Shown here: positions 7,438 to 15,954 of the stretch, piece by piece
Layout of the letters: the number at the start of each line of letters is the position of its first letter
How positions within the stretch are numbered: the first letter of the stretch is position 1
Assembly (NCBI GenBank): GCA_023014335.1
Contig: JAECYW010000020.1
Location: 868,001-932,000 of the forward strand
Source of the DNA: Galerina marginata
Lineage: Eukaryota; Basidiomycota; Agaricomycetes; Agaricales; Galerinaceae
Length of the DNA stretch: 64,000 nucleotides
Direction of reading: 5' to 3'
Notes under the pieces: generated by a model
The model's input: the letters and a program-made list of their open reading frames with translations, nothing else
Database searches by the model: none
What the model was told of the DNA's origin: nothing
Position numbers and translations under genes: made by a program

Positions 7438-7610
7438 ATACTTAAAATGTCATTATTCGGACAATTGCATTTTTTATACTTGATTTACGACATTGAGTGA
7501 GTCAGACAATTAAGGTAAGGCAGACGATTTGTCCCTATTGACAGAACACGCGTACAATAAAAACGAGCCCGTTCCTTTCTTCCCTCTATCTCCAGTTGAA
7601 CCCTACCAAA

Positions 7611-8393
7611 ATGTCCAAGCGACCAGAGCGACCAGAAGTCACTCGCGCGTGCTTTTCTTGCACTGCGCTTCCGCCGAAAGAGATGAAAGCCCTTCGTTGC
7701 GCCCGGTGCAATCGGGCGTATTACTGCGTGCGTAATTATAATGTGATTTCCACCTCAACCACTGAAGCCATTTTCTCATAGAACCGGGAATGTCAAAAGA
7801 GACATTGGCCATTCCATAAACCCTACTGCCATCAGGACGGGGTCTCGCCAGCCCCACAGGACGACTTAGGCGTAGCCTACCTTGGGCACAGCAATAGGAT
7901 GGAAATACTGGTCGCTGCCTCTATTGGCATGCTTCTCTGCCAGGCGTCGTGGATCTCGAACGATCAAGGCCACCGTCTCGCTGCTTTGGAGAAGGTTTCG
8001 CGCGAGAACTTCCCCTGTTTCGTTTTCACGATCCCCGAGCTCCATGTGAATTTTGCTAAGCATACTCGGCTGCTCCTTGCACCGAACGAGTGCCAGCTGG
8101 TCCCCGCAGGAGATTTCATAAATCTATCCCCAATCTCCCCTTCCTTTCCCATTGAATCAGGGAATTTCTCGCTTAAAATCATCCTTCGGATTTTCCCTAC
8201 AGAACGACGCACCCTACCGATTCATCAAATGATCGAAGTCCACATCGACCCTCGGGCCTATCTTAAGCAACCGAAAGGTGGCTGGATCGCACTGCTCTGC
8301 GGACTATTGCAAAACGATTTATGGATCGTTCAGACTGGCAACGACATCGAGAGTCAGTTTGCGGCTATAGATTCTTTGGGGAAAAATACGTGA
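7611..8393 (+). CDS. MYND zinc-finger protein
   Basis: Two exons, 7611-7727 and 7782-8393, giving 242 residues. The 54 bp intron GTGCGT...CATAG sits at the same place in the finger as in the upstream neighbour (after YYC). The finger is complete: C14-x2-C17, C30-x2-C33, YC39-x3-C43 and HWPFH51-x3-C55. The remaining 185 residues are of mixed composition without a recognised domain. They include a region resembling the C-terminal part of other fungal MYND-only proteins, with no catalytic residues visible. The identical intron position supports tandem duplication, though the tails have diverged strongly. Likely a protein-interaction adaptor; substrate unknown. Confidence 0.82.
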
Positions 8394-8753: not shown

Positions 8754-10660
8754 CTAGCATAGATCCAAGTCATTCGATTCCTCCCCACTCGACTCGGATC
8801 GTCTATCCTCCTCCTCTTGCTCTTCTTCCTCGGGATCGTCAGACCTGGGGTTGAGCATGGCATAGTACTCGTCGCAGAAGTCGTCGCGGATTCCGAGCTC
8901 CTGAAAGACCTCTCTGACTTGATGAAAACGCTGAACGGCAGCATCAATCCGGAGAAGGACGTCCTCGTCAATTTGCGAACGACGAACAAGGTAGCAAAAC
9001 TCCATAAATTCACTGATAGCGTTAACCATTGCAGGAGGGACAAGGCATGCGATGGCGGGAAGAAAAACCTTCATTAACGCCTTGGAGTCATTGCCGGTCC
9101 ACTGCTTGAATCCGCGACCTTCAGGAAATCGTCGTAAGCCAGAGAACGCAGCAGCAGCAGCAATCCTATTCAAGGGATGGGTCTCAGGGATGTCGGTTTT
9201 TTTGAAGGATAGTCATTACGTACCGTCGATCCATCTCTGTGATCAGCCGCTTCCCATTGGGCTGAGCCTCCATCCACTCAACTACCCAGGCGACGAGATG
9301 ATCTTTGAAGGTCCCTTTGATGATTTGGTGCAATAAATCTGGGGATAGTAGTTCGTGGATATTGGCACGCGGACAGTGAGCAGTAAACGGCTGTTCATGT
9401 TGAATTAGCATACACAAGGCTGCTCTCAGACCGTCGGACGTACCGTGACATCTGCAACAATTCCGTATCCCTCAGACAATTCCTTAGTATTTCCACCATA
9501 CGCATCATACACGGCTTGAGTATGTTCATGTGAACGCTGAGTGGAATCATGGCTATCAATATCGTTGGCTGGCGCGGTACATCTAGATAGGAACAATAAA
9601 TAGGATAACGGTTGGGTTGAATTCATGAACATACCTGGCGCACCATCCCGAGATTACACAGGCCAGAAGACATTGTTCAGGATAGTCTGCAATATAAGGA
9701 CCAAGTCCGTATATTACACAAGGATAATGCCCATCACCACAACGTGTCACTCGAGGTTTCGTCATCCAGGGCTTCAGGGGAGAGAGTATTCTGGCAAGTG
9801 ATGCATGAAACAACTGGCGCCGGAATTTTCGAAACTCGGCACTGTCGCTTTGATCCTTTTCAGCTTAAATAACAAGACGACATCAGTCCATTCAATCAAG
9901 TGTCTAAATGGCTTACTTTTTGGTATGGACAAAAATCCAATAACTGCTAAGGCGTTGCGGTGGGCTCGTCGAACATGATTCTGAGTGTTGCCATTTGATG
10001 CATAGAGAGGATAGTATTCGTTATGGCCAGTGCCAACAGAAACTGTGGTCTTGTCGGTCCCAAGGACGACAGGAGCAAACATAGCGCCATGGGTGCTTGG
10101 ATCTTCTGCGATTATATCCTACAAGTCAAAGATCAAAATAAGCTGCGTCAAGATGAGTGAAGTAGAATACCGATTGCTCCCAAGCCCACTGTCCCGACAT
10201 CAAATCGGTATATTGGCGCTTTTTATTGCGACCCATGACTTGTTTCGCAGCATAGTCGGTTTCGGCCGCAAAGGGTTTCGAAACCAAACCTCATAATCCT
10301 TCTTCATCCAACTCTTCTCACCGCTTGCAGGTACATCCCCGCTGTAAGAAATCTTGAAACCCTCCCAGGGTATATCACCGAGGGGAATGGAATCTATCTG
10401 GTTGAGCATATCCTTGCCAGAGCTGAAGGGCAGCCCTTCGCCATCTTGAGATTGCTGCCAAGCAGACCATACATCCATAAGAATGTCCACGTTTCCTGTC
10501 GACATTTGCTCGCGAGTAAAAAGAAAATCGGCAAGTTGAAAGTCTGGCTCTTCAGCAAAGGGAAAATAATCGTCTTCAGCACGAGACTCTGGAGCTTCGG
10601 GTGGAGCATTTGGTGGTAAATCGTATCCATCAGAATCGCATGGTACACCTGGACAAGTAG
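8754..10660 (-). CDS. Plavaka-type transposase, nearly intact, C-terminally altered
   Basis: Read from about 10650 to the stop at 8754. In order: an acidic N-terminus (DDYFPFAEEPDFQLADFLF), a YEVWFRNP segment, a MSGQWAWEQ segment, an intron near 10180-10130, the hallmark LGTDKTTVSVGTGHNEYYPLY near 10055, an intron near 9919-9867, YGLGPYIADYPEQ near 9700, an intron near 9635-9585, then IHELLSPDLLHQIIKGTFKDHL near 9340 and FKQWTGNDSKALMKVFLPAI near 9100. These blocks match the second common Plavaka subfamily of Agaricomycetes, which encodes a DDE transposase. One frameshift is needed near 10262. The expected C-terminal region after the QELGIRDDF segment is replaced by an acidic EEEEQEEED tail, so the protein is probably inactive or non-autonomous. 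No terminal inverted repeats were found. Confidence 0.75.
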
Positions 10661-11239
10661 AAAGATCAGAAAAGAGAGAAACTAAAGGGGTACTTCATAC
10701 CATCGAGATACGGGTGTGTTTGAACATATATTCCGCTTCTCCCAACTCTGCCACAGAAAGGTAAAGGTGGTAAGCAGAAGAAGAAGGGTGTTGATAAAAG
10801 ACAAGAAGTCCGGCGTCTTCGGGAAGAATACAACGAGGTTGACAAGGCTGAGAACGTTCCAGGCTTGAAAAGGAAGAGTTCCACCGGTCCCACGTCCAAC
10901 ACCGGGTATGACTCCCTTGCTATTCTTGACCACTCACTGATGTATTGTTAGGAGCGTCAAAACCAAGAAGAACAAAGCCGAACCACCATCTGGGGTTACT
11001 CGCCACTGGGAAGATGATCCGCTCCTCCACCCCCAACCTCGTACTAAGCGCACTCAATCCTCCAGCTCTGCGTCTTCTTTCCCTGTCACAAACAATCCAA
11101 GCGATGTCGAAATGGAGTTAGCAGATGCCAACACGGATTCATCAGCATTTCGTGAAGGTGGAATCTCCTCAGATAACGACAGCATCGAGCTCAAAACCCT
11201 GGTGAAGAAAGGTTCAAAAGGAGGCACCGCTTCCTTCCG

Positions 11240-11403
11240 TTAGCCAAGGTGCAAACAACCCGTGAGCACCAGCGTCCAGCCGAGCGGTAAACATAGAACC
11301 GCGATTTCGTATTCTCACGGTTCTTCACCTTTGCTGTCACCTTCCGCGCCTCAAAATCATACATTACACATTCGTTTATAAGATTTCTCGCATACTAATT
11401 GTT
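11240..11403 (+). repeat. Split direct repeat A1
   Basis: 164 bp beginning TTAGCCAAGGTGC and ending CATACTAATTGTT. Matches 13889-14052 with a single A/G difference seen. Confidence 0.85.
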
Positions 11404-11635
11404 CTTTTTCTATCATGACTGACTCCTCGCACGCCCACTTGGGTCTTAGGTTACCTTCGGACGTTGGATCTACCACCAGAGCCAACGGAGGTTCTAACAC
11501 CCAGAACACCCAACTGGCGACACCCTCGGCGACTCAAGCTCCAGTGCAAAGGTCTGCACCACCTTCGGCTACCACTTCCAACCGCACCAATCCCCAGCCA
11601 AACACGACTCTGCAGTCGCGGTCAGGAAGTGCTGT

Positions 11636-12434
11636 GACTGGTAGCTACCATTTGAATGATGAAAACGCGGTGGCTGCCCTACAGGGTCTGGTTCTACCAC
11701 CGCAAATGAATGAAAAAATTTTCATTCATTTCCGACGTTTGTTTCATTCCGACTAAATTTTCATTTTGTCTCATTCCCTCTAAATACCTGTTTCATTCCG
11801 ATAGTTCTCTTTCATTCCTTCATGGCAGCTGTTTCATTCTCATATCAAAGGCCCTGTTATGGGAATCAATTATATAATCAATATAACAGGGTGCTAAGTG
11901 GCTTATTTCTCAATATTTCTTTGCACTCTTTTTTAATTTGAGCCTCAAATTAAAAATTAATCCCAATAGGCCCCTCACCCCCCTGCAATAGGCAGCAGCC
12001 CTAGAACAATAGAGGTTGGAGTTTATTTCCTTATTTAGAGGTTCATAAATGATTGAAACTACTGCCCTAAAAGAATGAAATACATGTCATTGAATGAAAA
12101 TGTGACCGGAAAAAATTGAAATAAAATGAAACAGGAATGAAACAAAATTACCAGAATGAAACAGAAGAAAATGGAGATGAAACAGAATAGGGAGGGAATG
12201 AAACAGGTTGGAATTGGAATGAAAGAGAAAAAATCGGAATGAAAGAGCAAAAACTGGAATGAAAAGCAGAATGAAGCATTTTTGCGGAAAGAATGAGACA
12301 AAAATTGATGAATTTACTGGAATGAAACAAACGTCAGAAATGAATGAAAATTTTTTTCATTCATTTGCGGTGGTAGAACCAGACCCTGTAGGGCAGCCAC
12401 CGCGTTTGCATGATGAAAAATGTAGCTACTAGTG
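11636..12434. mobile_element. 799 bp terminal-inverted-repeat (MITE or foldback) element
   Basis: Flanked by the 7 bp direct repeat GTGCTGT (11629-11635 and 12435-12441). The ends are inverted: GACTGGTAGCTAC against CACTAGTAGCTAC on the opposite strand. Inversion continues inward for over 120 bp, including a nearly perfect block at 11673-11751 and 12310-12398 carrying TGCCCTACAGGGTCTGG. The subterminal region contains its own short stems (GCGGTGG...CCACCGC, and ATGAATGAAA...TTTCATTCAT). The interior is built of repeated GGAATGAAAC-type units and has no coding capacity. It interrupts the gag-like ORF in mid-codon, and removal of the element plus one target copy would leave the reading frame continuous. 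Confidence 0.75.
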
Positions 12435-12811
12435 GTGCTGTAATCGAAACCGATAGGACACGGGGCGAGAACCAGGCCCTTCGAGACGAAATTGCGCGCC
12501 TGAAAGCGGAAATTGAAGCCTTGCGAGCTGGCCAGCCTCAGTCAGCACCTCGGGAGCCGCCTCGCAACGAGACCGCTCCTTCACGTGCCGAGGATCCTCC
12601 TCATGGACAGAGAGGCGCACCTCTCGCAGGGCCCAATCAGCCGCCCGACGTTCTGCAGCAGCTCTTCGTCGACGAAGACACCCTGGCGCGCATTCGTTCC
12701 GCCTCCGTGACCAAACAGGAAACCGGAAAGAGAGCACCCCTCCCCGACATCGTTCCGGGTTTCAAGGCCAACTCGCTTGATGTTGGTAAGCATACCCTTC
12801 GTTTGTTCGCA

Positions 12812-12931
12812 CATCCAGTAAAGCTGGACCGAGCACCATGAGCGATAGGCTCATTCGTCGTCGCGCCATTGGCGTGTGCAGGCTTCGCCTATCCAGTAGA
12901 GCTGGACCGAATGCCAAGAGCGATAGGCTCC
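12812..12931 (+). repeat. Short tandem duplication with ATCCAGTARAGCTGGACCGA unit
   Basis: A roughly 40 bp block (ATCCAGTAAAGCTGGACCGA to GAGCGATAGGCTC) is present twice, 79 bp apart, within the probable intron of the gag-like ORF. Some positions differ, so it is not very recent. Confidence 0.6.
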
Positions 12932-13785
12932 TTCTCAACTTGCGACCTGTTCGTAATTTGGCTGTTGTAACAAGCCGGTGTAGCTGGTCTCATGTCATGT
13001 CATGAACATTTGACTATTCGTAGTCGAGCTACTTGCGTTCGCGTTCCAGAACAGCTGGCATCACCTTCTGGTTCCCACCAGCTTATCTTAAGGACTGTAA
13101 CCTTCTTTCGCCCTCGAAGCCAGACCCTTATTTCTTACTATCCTACTGTTGCTCTTTATTATACCTAAAGAGCTTTTCAGCTAACTTGGTCTGTCCAGTT
13201 GTCTCGTCGAAGGCTGAGGAAGCTTTCAAAGCCTTCAAATATGTTCCCTATGTTGCGCTCACGCGCCCTGTTTTGCTTAAGACGATCAGCGACGAGGAAG
13301 AGTTTACCTTCAATGCACAAGGTGTCCTCACTGCCAAAGGCCTGGATCGTAAAAACGAGAAAGAGATTACGCTATCTGACTGGGTGCAAGTGTCGAAAGC
13401 CGCCGAGAACAGAACCAAATTCCATCATGGTGAGGTGAGGGCAACAGCTCTTGCATCCCATCATCGCATTGTCATGGACCTGGCAAGAATACACAACTGG
13501 CCAATTGCCCTTGAATATGACATCCAACAACGCGAACTTGCTGCTCTCTCCCCAGCACATGATTTGAGTACCCTTGACCAGCAAGCTCTCACCATCATTG
13601 CCACTCGTCACCTCGTACATGTTTCGCATTCTCAGGCTCAGTCCTCACTGAAACGTTCGGCACCGGATACTGAACCTAGCACACCTTCTAAGCAAGTTCG
13701 CTTATACTAGGACGAATTCGTGCCTCCTCAGTTGGTTGGGCTGGCGTCGCAATGGCGCCGCGGGTGTCTTCGTCGGCTGTGGGTA

Positions 13786-13888
13786 AGCGGCTCCATTTGC
13801 TCCGTGTTCCGATCTGAGCTTGCGCTCAGACCCCAGCCCAACCCATTGACCTTGTATCATACGCGGTTCGGTGAGAGACGAAGCTGGA
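13786..13888 (+). repeat. Split direct repeat B1
   Basis: 103 bp beginning AGCGGCTCCATTTGC and ending GACGAAGCTGGA. Matches 14259-14361 with a single C/T difference seen. Confidence 0.85.
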
Positions 13889-14052
13889 TTAGCCAAGGTG
13901 CAAACAACCCGTGAGCACCAGCGTCCAGCCGAGCGGTAAACATAGAACCGCGATTTCGTATTCTCACGGTTCTTCACCTTTGCTGTCACCTTCCGCGCCT
14001 CGAAATCATACATTACACATTCGTTTATAAGATTTCTCGCATACTAATTGTT
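13889..14052 (+). repeat. Split direct repeat A2
   Basis: Second copy of A1, immediately abutting repeat B1 on its left, as expected for the internal junction of a split-direct-repeat retroelement. Confidence 0.85.
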
Positions 14053-14258
14053 GTTTTGCCCATCCCTCCCACCCTATACTTTATATATGTTGCATATACA
14101 TATCGTTTAATTGCTATAAGGTGTTTCCCATAAAATCTTTTCCGATTATCCAGTCTAACTATGTCGCTTACACGGTAACATCTAATCTGTGACATTTCAT
14201 TTCTCACTGTCTGTGCATGGTACAAGGAAATTCACCGAGCAAACAGTCCCGCCCACCC

Positions 14259-14361
14259 AGCGGCTTCATTTGCTCCGTGTTCCGATCTGAGCTTGCGCTC
14301 AGACCCCAGCCCAACCCATTGACCTTGTATCATACGCGGTTCGGTGAGAGACGAAGCTGGA
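14259..14361 (+). repeat. Split direct repeat B2
   Basis: Terminal copy of B1. It is followed by AGTATATCC, which together with the left flank resembles an interrupted GTAAGTAT splice donor. Confidence 0.85.
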
Positions 14362-15582
14362 AGTATATCCATACATTTTCTTTTGTCTTTAGTCACCGAC
14401 CTTTTTCTATGTAGTCCCTTCCATCGGTCAAAGTCGAGGACCTGGCCGAGACTCCGATGCTTTTAAAGCGTCCATCCCGCCAAGGCTCAAGAGCCCCATC
14501 CAAACGACCGAAGTTGAAGGATTTACCGTCCGAAGCTTCCAAGTATTTCGACACCTTTTCCGTCAAGGGTTATAATGCTGTTGGCGACTTGGATGCATGG
14601 TCATCACTTAGCGATGCCCAGATCCTCGCGTTATGGAATGAAACCGCAGTAGAGGAAACCTCAATGTCCGATCTAGACCATGAGTGGTTTCCGATCGTCA
14701 AACGACTTGTACGTATATCAATGGTATTTATTTAACTTGCGTTCACCGTTCCATCTATCCAGCTGAACCGAAGCCTCTCATCCAACTGGACTCACAAGTT
14801 TCGAGAGGCTGGTGTTGTTGCTGTAACTTGAACTGATGAATTACAACGCCGTGGACTCGAGACTGTCGAGCAACGCACTACCTTTGTAAACGCCATGTTA
14901 GGTAAGCATGACCAGACTACAGTCGACTGCCCATTCCTCTGGCAGTCCACCGACGACATAGACTGGAAGGGAGATGACCCGGAGCCCCAACGATCTGTGA
15001 GTTGTTTCGAATTTCTTCTTTTCTCCCAAGTAACAGATTTTGGATAAACTGTATCTAGGGCGTTTTCTTAGGTCGTTTGGTCTTGATCACGCTGGCTGCG
15101 CACCTCACACTCATTAGCAGCTTGGACATTGAGGAGAGGTCCAAGCGACCACGAGGAGCTTTGATGATGGCTATTCAAGCGGTGAGCACCTGAGATTCAC
15201 GGGCCACCCTGGCTGATTTGACTTGTACTACTGCTAGGTCCATCGTGCTCTCTTGTACTCGGTCTCTGGCGAGATGAAGGAACCGTCTGGTAGGGGCGGT
15301 GGCTTCTCGCAGGAGAATTGGGGTGACATCACGGTTGAACAAGATCATGGCGCCGGCAAGGTGAAGAAGGTCATCAAGCGTGGTTCTATCTACAAGGATC
15401 GACTTGACCAGCGGCCGGAGAAGCACTGGGCGAAGATATTGGAGACGGCTTTTGTGTATGTAGGGAGGAAGAGGGGTGCAGCAAGGGCTATTATTGCAGC
15501 GGCTGACGAACCAGAAGTACTGGATGACCCAGAAGAAGCTGCTGCCTACGAACAAGCACTGTATGACCCTATGTTTGACTAA

Positions 15583-15954
15583 TTATTCGAACTTTTATAT
15601 CGTAAATTTATGTCTTTTCGAGTGTCATTTTTGGCTTTCATAAGAAATATAGAGAGATACATGGATTGTCTTTAACATAAGTCACGTCTTTTAGATGGTC
15701 TTTCTGGTCAATGGTTTGCAACAAAGTCTTTTAAAAGACGAGGGACCTAGCTTTGAGAAGACACAGTCTTTGGGACTTTTCAGTCTTTTCGGGTCTTTAG
15801 GTCTTTTCAAAGACACAGAAAGACCACTCGAACGACACGTCAGATTTGCTGATGTGGGAAGGGAGACAAACTCGTGTTATCTGAAGACCGCGGCGCTTCT
15901 TTAATGAAGCCGAATAAAATTTCTCGTAGGTTTCCAATTCTTGGTCCCGACTCG
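15583..15954. repeat. GTCTTT/AAAGAC-rich tract
   Basis: Between 15685 and 15830 the motif GTCTTT (or its complement AAAGAC) recurs many times, including the palindromic core GTCTTTTAAAAGAC. No ORF of note. It could be a small non-autonomous element, a recombination hotspot or a set of protein-binding sites. No copies elsewhere in the window were noticed. Confidence 0.35.

Follow-up and report, generated by a model that had tools for sequence, protein, structure and literature searches.

Organization of the element

The element spans positions 11240 to 14361 of the window (the whole 64,000-nucleotide stretch of DNA that was analyzed) and is 3122 bp long, or about 2.3 kb once a 799-bp insert is subtracted. 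Four repeats, all read on the forward strand, frame a gag gene in the order A1-ORF-B1A2-B2. The left split direct repeat, A1 (11240..11408), starts with TTAGCC and is followed closely on its 3' side by the gag open reading frame, which begins at 11415 and stops at 13710. A short segment (13711..13785) leads from gag to the internal repeats B1 (13786..13888), whose 3' end is GACGAAGCTGGA, and A2 (13889..14057), which directly adjoins B1. A spacer (14058..14258), at least part of which is retained in solo A-B copies at loci C22 and C23, separates A2 from the right repeat B2 (14259..14361), which ends in GCTGGA. The left edge of A1 and the right edge of B2 are set by an empty site (L023).

A1 and A2 are identical at 167 of 169 bp (two mismatches), and B1 and B2 at 102 of 103 bp (one mismatch); both pairs are too long and too similar to be chance copies. 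The first-pass annotation had described nearly identical pairs of 164 bp (A) and 103 bp (B) in the same order around the ORF. The coordinates confirm the order, with B1 and A2 abutting, and the length of B. The near identity of the A pair also stands, but its true extent is 169 bp, the shorter value reaching only near the last mismatch.

Within the segment between gag and B1, positions 13728-13748 can pair with positions 13829-13849 of B1. The outer 8-pair helix of this pairing holds in 21 of the 24 cells compared among the window and relatives C20 and C5, and the same segment can also pair with part of B2.

The gag gene, its intron and its insert

The gag gene consists of two exons, the first of which is divided by the insert. 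The 5' part of exon 1 (11415..11635, forward strand) starts with ATGACTGACTCC, and 70 of 72 compared residues are the same in the copy at locus C28; the first residues, MTDS, are also present in the C20 relative. The 3' part of exon 1 (12442..12785, forward strand) appears coiled-coil-like by eye and ends in FKANSLDV. It is followed by a phase-1 intron of 413 bp (12786..13198, forward strand; GTAAGC...GCTAAC...CAG) and by exon 2 (13199..13710, forward strand), which ends in RLY and a stop codon at the position of the zinc knuckle of relatives. The predicted structure of exon 2 is mostly helical, the best model having a mean pLDDT of 84.8 and the other four 61-68. The first-pass annotation had proposed that the element carries only a gag-like ORF. 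Homology to Gag supports this in substance, but the frame is not open in the window copy, being cut by both the insert and the intron.

The insert (11636..12434, no strand assigned; 799 bp) is foreign to the retroelement. Its inverted arms are 86 bases each and 91% complementary, and it is flanked by a 7-bp duplication, GTGCTGT (11629-11635 and 12435-12441). The insert site is exactly empty in the C28 copy, and further copies of the arms are found on C15, C43 and C4. The insert looks like a MITE-type element. An Rfam scan gave a single match, below threshold, and this was located inside the insert.

The splice point in related copies coincides with that of the window, and the database protein P0006 spans it without a gap (SLEV/AIPPKVEEAF). 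The continuity of P0006, which is either RNA-derived or a gene model, supports the intron. Six related introns (C28, C20, C23a, C23b, C5 and C3), judged by reading, share the phase-1 position and range from 281 to 451 bp. A 51-base repeat, present in two copies in the window intron, bears small hairpins.

Gag homologues and the missing zinc knuckle

Among 204 candidates, 31 database proteins matched Gag exon 2 at an E value of ≤0.001, while a Pfam search with the window Gag pieces gave no match above the cut-off. The C terminus was compared with P0001 (66% identical to the window Gag): the window protein ends KQVRLY where P0001 continues KQPRLCFRCG, and the stop falls just where the first knuckle starts. 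In an alignment of 19 Gag rows, the pattern CxxCxxxxHxxxxC occurs in 16, and the rows without it are the window, C28 and P0002 (143 residues), which ends earlier. In a larger alignment the pattern is present in 20 of 28 rows, and Pfam zf-CCHC was recognized in four of the 28 at an E value of ≤0.01. Seven of 27 database homologues (P0002, P0013, P0016, P0018, P0019, P0026 and P0027) lack the pattern; these may be cut-off gene models or further truncated Gags. A search for relatives in viral contigs confirmed none among 32 pattern matches.

Copies of the short family

Across the 69.3-Mb assembly (43 contigs), repeat A was found at five places and repeat B at six, together making up five loci. 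The window copy (locus C13) has the full repeat set. The C28 locus has A1-gag-B, is 96% identical to the window and lacks A2 and the second B. The C19 locus retains B with the 3' end of gag only (92% identity over 267 bases spanning the gag stop) and is interrupted further upstream. Loci C22 and C23 consist of A2, spacer and B2 alone (L016 7842-8219 and L017 2149-2435); their repeats are 81-92% identical to those of the window and are older, and the final bases of B have diverged in the C22 copy.

The fusion of the gag stop region to B1 is common to C13, C28 and C19. Neither C28 nor C19 resembles the window beyond the element (window positions 10000-15600 compared with 9.9 kb of each), and a deletion shared by three of the five loci identifies a family. 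Neither RT nor tyrosine recombinase (YR) was detected by tblastn at an E value of ≤0.01 in the window and the four other loci, while relatives C20 and C5 gave strong matches in the same run. Lacking RT, RNase H and YR, the family is filed as a non-autonomous derivative and not as Ngaro proper.

Independent occurrence of repeats A and B elsewhere in the genome had been named as evidence against a split-repeat element. This was not seen: behind each of the five copies of A lies a B of matching orientation, and the solo A-B copies fit recombination between repeats. The C28 form fits the product expected from B1 x B2 recombination, and the C22 and C23 forms fit that from A1 x A2; host recombination or a YR acting on the cores would each be sufficient. 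The solo A2-B2 copies are the split-repeat counterpart of solo long terminal repeats (LTRs).

Full-length relatives and a shared terminal core

Beyond itself and C28, Gag exon 2 matched C20, C23 (two matches), C3 and C5 at 41-45% identity over about 150 amino acids, and two further fragments on C19. Relatives C20 and C23a share 98% identity across 5.4 kb. In C20, C23a and C5, the repeats A1, B1, A2 and B2 follow the order of the window; C3 has B1-A2-B2, with A1 absent from the stretch read, and in C23b, of which 9.9 kb were read, the similarity goes no further than where the YR region begins. Between A1 and B1A2-B2, relatives C20, C23 and C5 carry Gag, YR and a region for RT/RNase H, and C3 has the same parts. 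The gag genes of C20 and C5 include the zinc knuckle.

The RT/RNase H regions of C20 and C5 are homologous to those of two other Ngaro elements, C30 and C18, and the alignment has invariant DD and D-E-D residues, which we take to be RT/RNase H motifs. The RT was not recognized by Pfam, NCBIfam or PDB sequence profiles; it is identified as a probable RT from the names of its homologues, from motifs and from its homology across Ngaro elements. Among the RT homologues listed (the best 120 of 687), P0124 is named as a reverse transcriptase domain, and among the YR homologues listed (the best 120 of 401), names include Tyr recombinase and DNA breaking-rejoining enzyme. Where the listed mobile-element homologues carry an organism name, which most RT and YR rows do not, it is that of an Agaricomycete, such as Suillus, Tricholoma, Mycena or Sphaerobolus, and the host is on these grounds probably a mushroom-type fungus. 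In a genome scan with PF00589, the C30 YR scored at the cut-off and those of C1 and C18 below it, and those of C20 and C5 were missed; the C20 YR itself has 30 matches in the genome. Pfam found no methyltransferase domain in the scanned frames of C20, C5, C30 and C18, in a scan that also missed their RT.

The A and B repeats of the relatives are diverged homologues of those in the window, and their terminal core is nearly identical. The core, GA[C/T]GAAG[C/T]TGGA at the end of B followed by TTAGC[C/T] at the start of A, is common to the window, C20/C23a and C5/C3. The B end and A start read GACGAAGCTGGA and TTAGCC in the window, GATGAAGCTGGA and GTTAGCC in C20/C23a, and GACGAAGTTGGA and ATTAGCT in C5/C3. 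The cores of the C30 and C18 Ngaro elements differ from that of the window (TTCAAAGA and TTACAT in C30). The assembly contains no full-length element with the very A and B of the window, which leaves a diverged relative, or an element since lost, as the helper. The expectation that full-length relatives would be found between the same repeats therefore held for the RT/RNase H, YR and layout but not for the repeats, which are diverged and not identical.

In the C30 Ngaro element (L019 1681-7512), both A1/A2 and B1/B2 are 100% identical, which makes a recent insertion probable; its repeat sequences are unrelated to those of the window.

Insertion sites

The sequences flanking the window element abut in a paralogous stretch, L023 (on C43), with neither duplication nor loss. 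The left flank aligns to L023 as far as base 1538, and the alignment of the right flank starts at base 1539; the right alignment covers 481 columns at 69% identity, and the left covers 38 bases at 92%, with a nearby 20-base match. CTTCCG directly joins AGTACG in the empty site, whereas the filled site reads CTTCCG, then TTAGCC...GCTGGA, then AGTATA. The C20 relative gives the same picture: CATACAGGC directly joins CTGTAATC in L053, and in the filled site the two are separated by an element beginning GTTAGCC and ending GAAGCTGGA, again with no duplication. Both empty sites are paralogous, not allelic. The paralogous stretch for the C28 flank (L049) is strongly diverged at the junction.

Empty sites free of target duplication had been named as support, and a transposase-type duplication as the contrary outcome; such empty sites are seen at L023 for the window copy and at L053 for the C20 relative, and neither shows a duplication. 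The assignment to the tyrosine-recombinase retrotransposons, made at first from the repeat order, is thus borne out by relatives of the same layout that combine Gag homology with YR and by insertion without duplication.

The insertion point, between 11239 and 14362, lies in L023 one base 5' of GTACGT, which may be a splice site in a host gene family with repeated members.

Selection on the truncated Gag

The gag genes of the window and C28 were compared in three pieces read separately (216, 342 and 510 bases), with a few codons near the insert omitted. Synonymous changes numbered 20.5 over 266.5 sites and nonsynonymous changes 18.5 over 798.5 sites, giving a pN/pS of 0.30; the difference is significant (Fisher P = 4.4e-4, with rounded counts). 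The signal comes mostly from exon 2 (15 against 11). Because the deletion is already present in both copies, the selection would have operated on the truncated protein as the element went on copying, and this one pair of copies suggests purifying selection on Gag in its deleted form. The introns of the two copies differ at 13 of 408 sites, below the synonymous rate (P = 0.016), which is weakly compatible with constraint on the intron.

Probable origin and mobilization

The element is best read, with a probability of about 0.87, as a non-autonomous derivative of a Ngaro-type YR retrotransposon in an Agaricomycete-like host, in which loss of everything from the zinc knuckle to YR left A1-gag-B1A2-B2 and whose RNA is copied and inserted by the enzymes of a relative. 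In an ancestor, the zinc knuckle of Gag and all that follows it as far as YR, RT and RNase H included, would have been lost, so that a knuckle-free gag stayed behind between the split repeats. The RNA of the shortened element would be reverse transcribed by the RT of a relative, with the B1A2 junction serving as the template that completes and circularizes the DNA, as in the model for split-repeat elements. The YR of a relative would then insert the circle by exchange at the core where B meets A. The window copy would later have acquired the inverted-repeat insert within gag, and recombination of A1 x A2 or B1 x B2 would account for the loci with A2-B2 alone and for the one with A1-gag-B. A trimmed gag alone between split repeats, in a genome with full-length relatives, most likely borrows the enzymes of those relatives, as the first-pass annotation had supposed in proposing mobilization in trans. 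What the element shares in cis with the relatives that have all modules is the terminal core, made up of the B end and the A start.

Selection on a Gag without its knuckle could be read differently, the truncated protein being retained to interfere with or tune full-length relatives, with mobility secondary. Ty1 in yeast, which is restricted by a capsid-only Gag, is a precedent for such a brake, and a low pN/pS in a knuckle-less protein speaks for it; selection may, however, act simply in cis during copying, and this role is improbable as the main explanation. Less probable again is that the window holds an internally deleted, dead Ngaro that was immobile in its deleted form. The insert breaks the window Gag, and the family is small: there are five loci, and both the window and C28 copies are damaged, the former by the insert and the latter by loss of A2-B2. 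This reading is weakened by the same gag-stop-to-B1 fusion at C28 and C19, whose flanks are unlike those of the window, and by the enrichment of Gag changes between the window and C28 at synonymous sites. Two unrelated direct repeats could in principle take such an order, but a DNA transposon is ruled out by the duplication-free empty sites L023 and L053, and the chance that either a transposon or a fortuitous arrangement mimics split direct repeats is negligible given the empty site without target duplication and the homologous Gag of same-layout elements that add YR.

Comparison with known elements

Non-autonomous elements with partial resemblance are known from other groups. TR-GAG elements are gag-only LTR retrotransposons of plants that borrow pol in trans and, being LTR elements, generate an integrase-type target duplication; they resemble the window element in keeping Gag alone, whereas its split repeats and duplication-free insertion set the window element apart from them. 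In Chlamydomonas, TOC1 is a non-autonomous split-repeat element and resembles the window element in both respects, but it belongs to another lineage and, to our knowledge, has no gag.

Ngaro elements have the layout A1-[ORFs]-B1A2B2 (PMC8547959 and PMC4157794) and are told from DIRS and PAT by the absence of a methyltransferase domain (PMC4157794). Fungal Ngaro elements (Muszewska et al. 2013, PMC3783388) and the window element are alike in this layout and in a homologous Gag, and the window element further shares the terminal core and duplication-free insertion with the copies of Ngaro in this genome that have all modules. Unlike Ngaro, it lacks RT, RNase H, YR and the Gag zinc knuckle and is only about 2.3 kb long without its insert. 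SIRE is a short version of VIPER in Trypanosoma cruzi (Ribeiro et al. 2019, PMC6681497, and PMC12278014). Like the solo A-B loci C22 and C23, it is equivalent to the A2-B2 part of a YR element with split repeats, and PMC6681497 does not decide between a mobile element and a remnant. SIRE is short and bounded by VIPER ends in that account, whereas the window element retains gag and four repeats.

Non-autonomous split-repeat YR retrotransposons are little described, SIRE being the short form in the available portions of the literature surveyed. A search of the open-licence PMC literature, with subscription journals (including the original Ngaro papers) outside its range, found neither a Ngaro derivative reduced to gag nor a hairpin-rich gag intron described, and absence from print is not claimed. 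Neither is described in the available text of PMC3783388, PMC4157794, PMC12477816, PMC6681497, PMC12278014 and PMC8547959, and the main text of PMC3783388, as available, contains no words starting with intron, autonomous, split direct or solo. Beyond the first-pass annotation, the analysis adds that Gag lacks its zinc knuckle and is apparently under selection; it also brings in the intron and the insert, the solo copies, and a core common to relatives with all modules. A knuckle-less Gag under selection, together with such relatives sharing the same core, makes trans-mobilization and Gag co-assembly testable in this class.

Hairpins in the gag intron

The window intron contains seven perfect hairpins with a stem of ≥5, compared with a shuffle mean of 1.67, and none of 500 shuffles reached this number. 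With the same stem length, C5 has six and C3 seven (0/500 shuffles each), C28 six (3/500), C23a four (28/500), C20 four (53/500) and C23b one (281/500). With a stem of ≥4, none of 300 shuffles reached the counts in the window, C20, C23a, C5 and C3, and the numbers were 16/300 for C28 and 11/300 for C23b. Neighboring control stretches were also enriched in four of 14 cases (C20 downstream, 6/300; C23a downstream, 3/300; C3 upstream, 6/300; C5 upstream, 18/300). Folding energy z values were -2.85 in the window intron, -1.54 in C28, -1.25 in C20, -0.99 in C23a, -3.68 in C5, -3.79 in C3 and -0.76 in C23b, and reached -2.58 (window upstream), -2.17 (C20 downstream) and -2.09 (C3 upstream) in controls. 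Folding energy is clearly low in the window, C5 and C3 alone, and the hairpin signal is uneven among copies.

The units themselves differ. The window has TCCAG-TAAAG-CTGGA and GAGC-GATAG-GCTC, and C20 has GCCC...GGGC. In C5 (CTATC-GCC-GATAG, CTACTC-GCC-GAGTAG and TTGTCC-GCC-GGACAA), the loop is constant and the stems vary, with pairing kept. The gag introns of L033 (1960-2410), L037 (2036-2445) and the window have the same position, and their hairpin sequences are unrelated between families.

One speculative account is that Gag is made from spliced RNA and that the hairpins of the retained intron form a packaging signal, which would restrict copying to unspliced RNA. In that case the satellite would keep its own intron hairpins, the YR core and a selected, knuckle-less Gag that co-assembles with the Gag of the helper, and the hairpin form would stay while its sequence turns over completely between families. 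This account as a whole is doubtful, though less so than the two alternatives to trans-mobilization weighed above, and the idea of packaging is no more than a guess, drawn from an analogy to retroviruses. An intron with sequence-shifting hairpins is a place to study how the RNA of Ngaro elements is singled out for copying.

The data do not support hairpin arrays as a general trait of Ngaro elements. Upstream of the YRs of other Ngaro groups, seven stretches of 1.8 kb (C10, C41, C39, C43, C23c, C8 and C30), picked by distance, were scored in their densest 400 bases, and six of them were not above shuffles; those of C43, C8, C39 and C23c may not be gag. C43 was marginal, with six hairpins of stem ≥5 (8/60 shuffles reached this) and 12 of stem ≥4 (2/60). 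A separate array lies in the RT region of the C18 Ngaro element, on the minus strand of L021 at about 7600-8200: hairpin units of the form GGCTT[CT][AG]GCC stand in tandem, 24 of them over 600 bases, possibly inside an intron.
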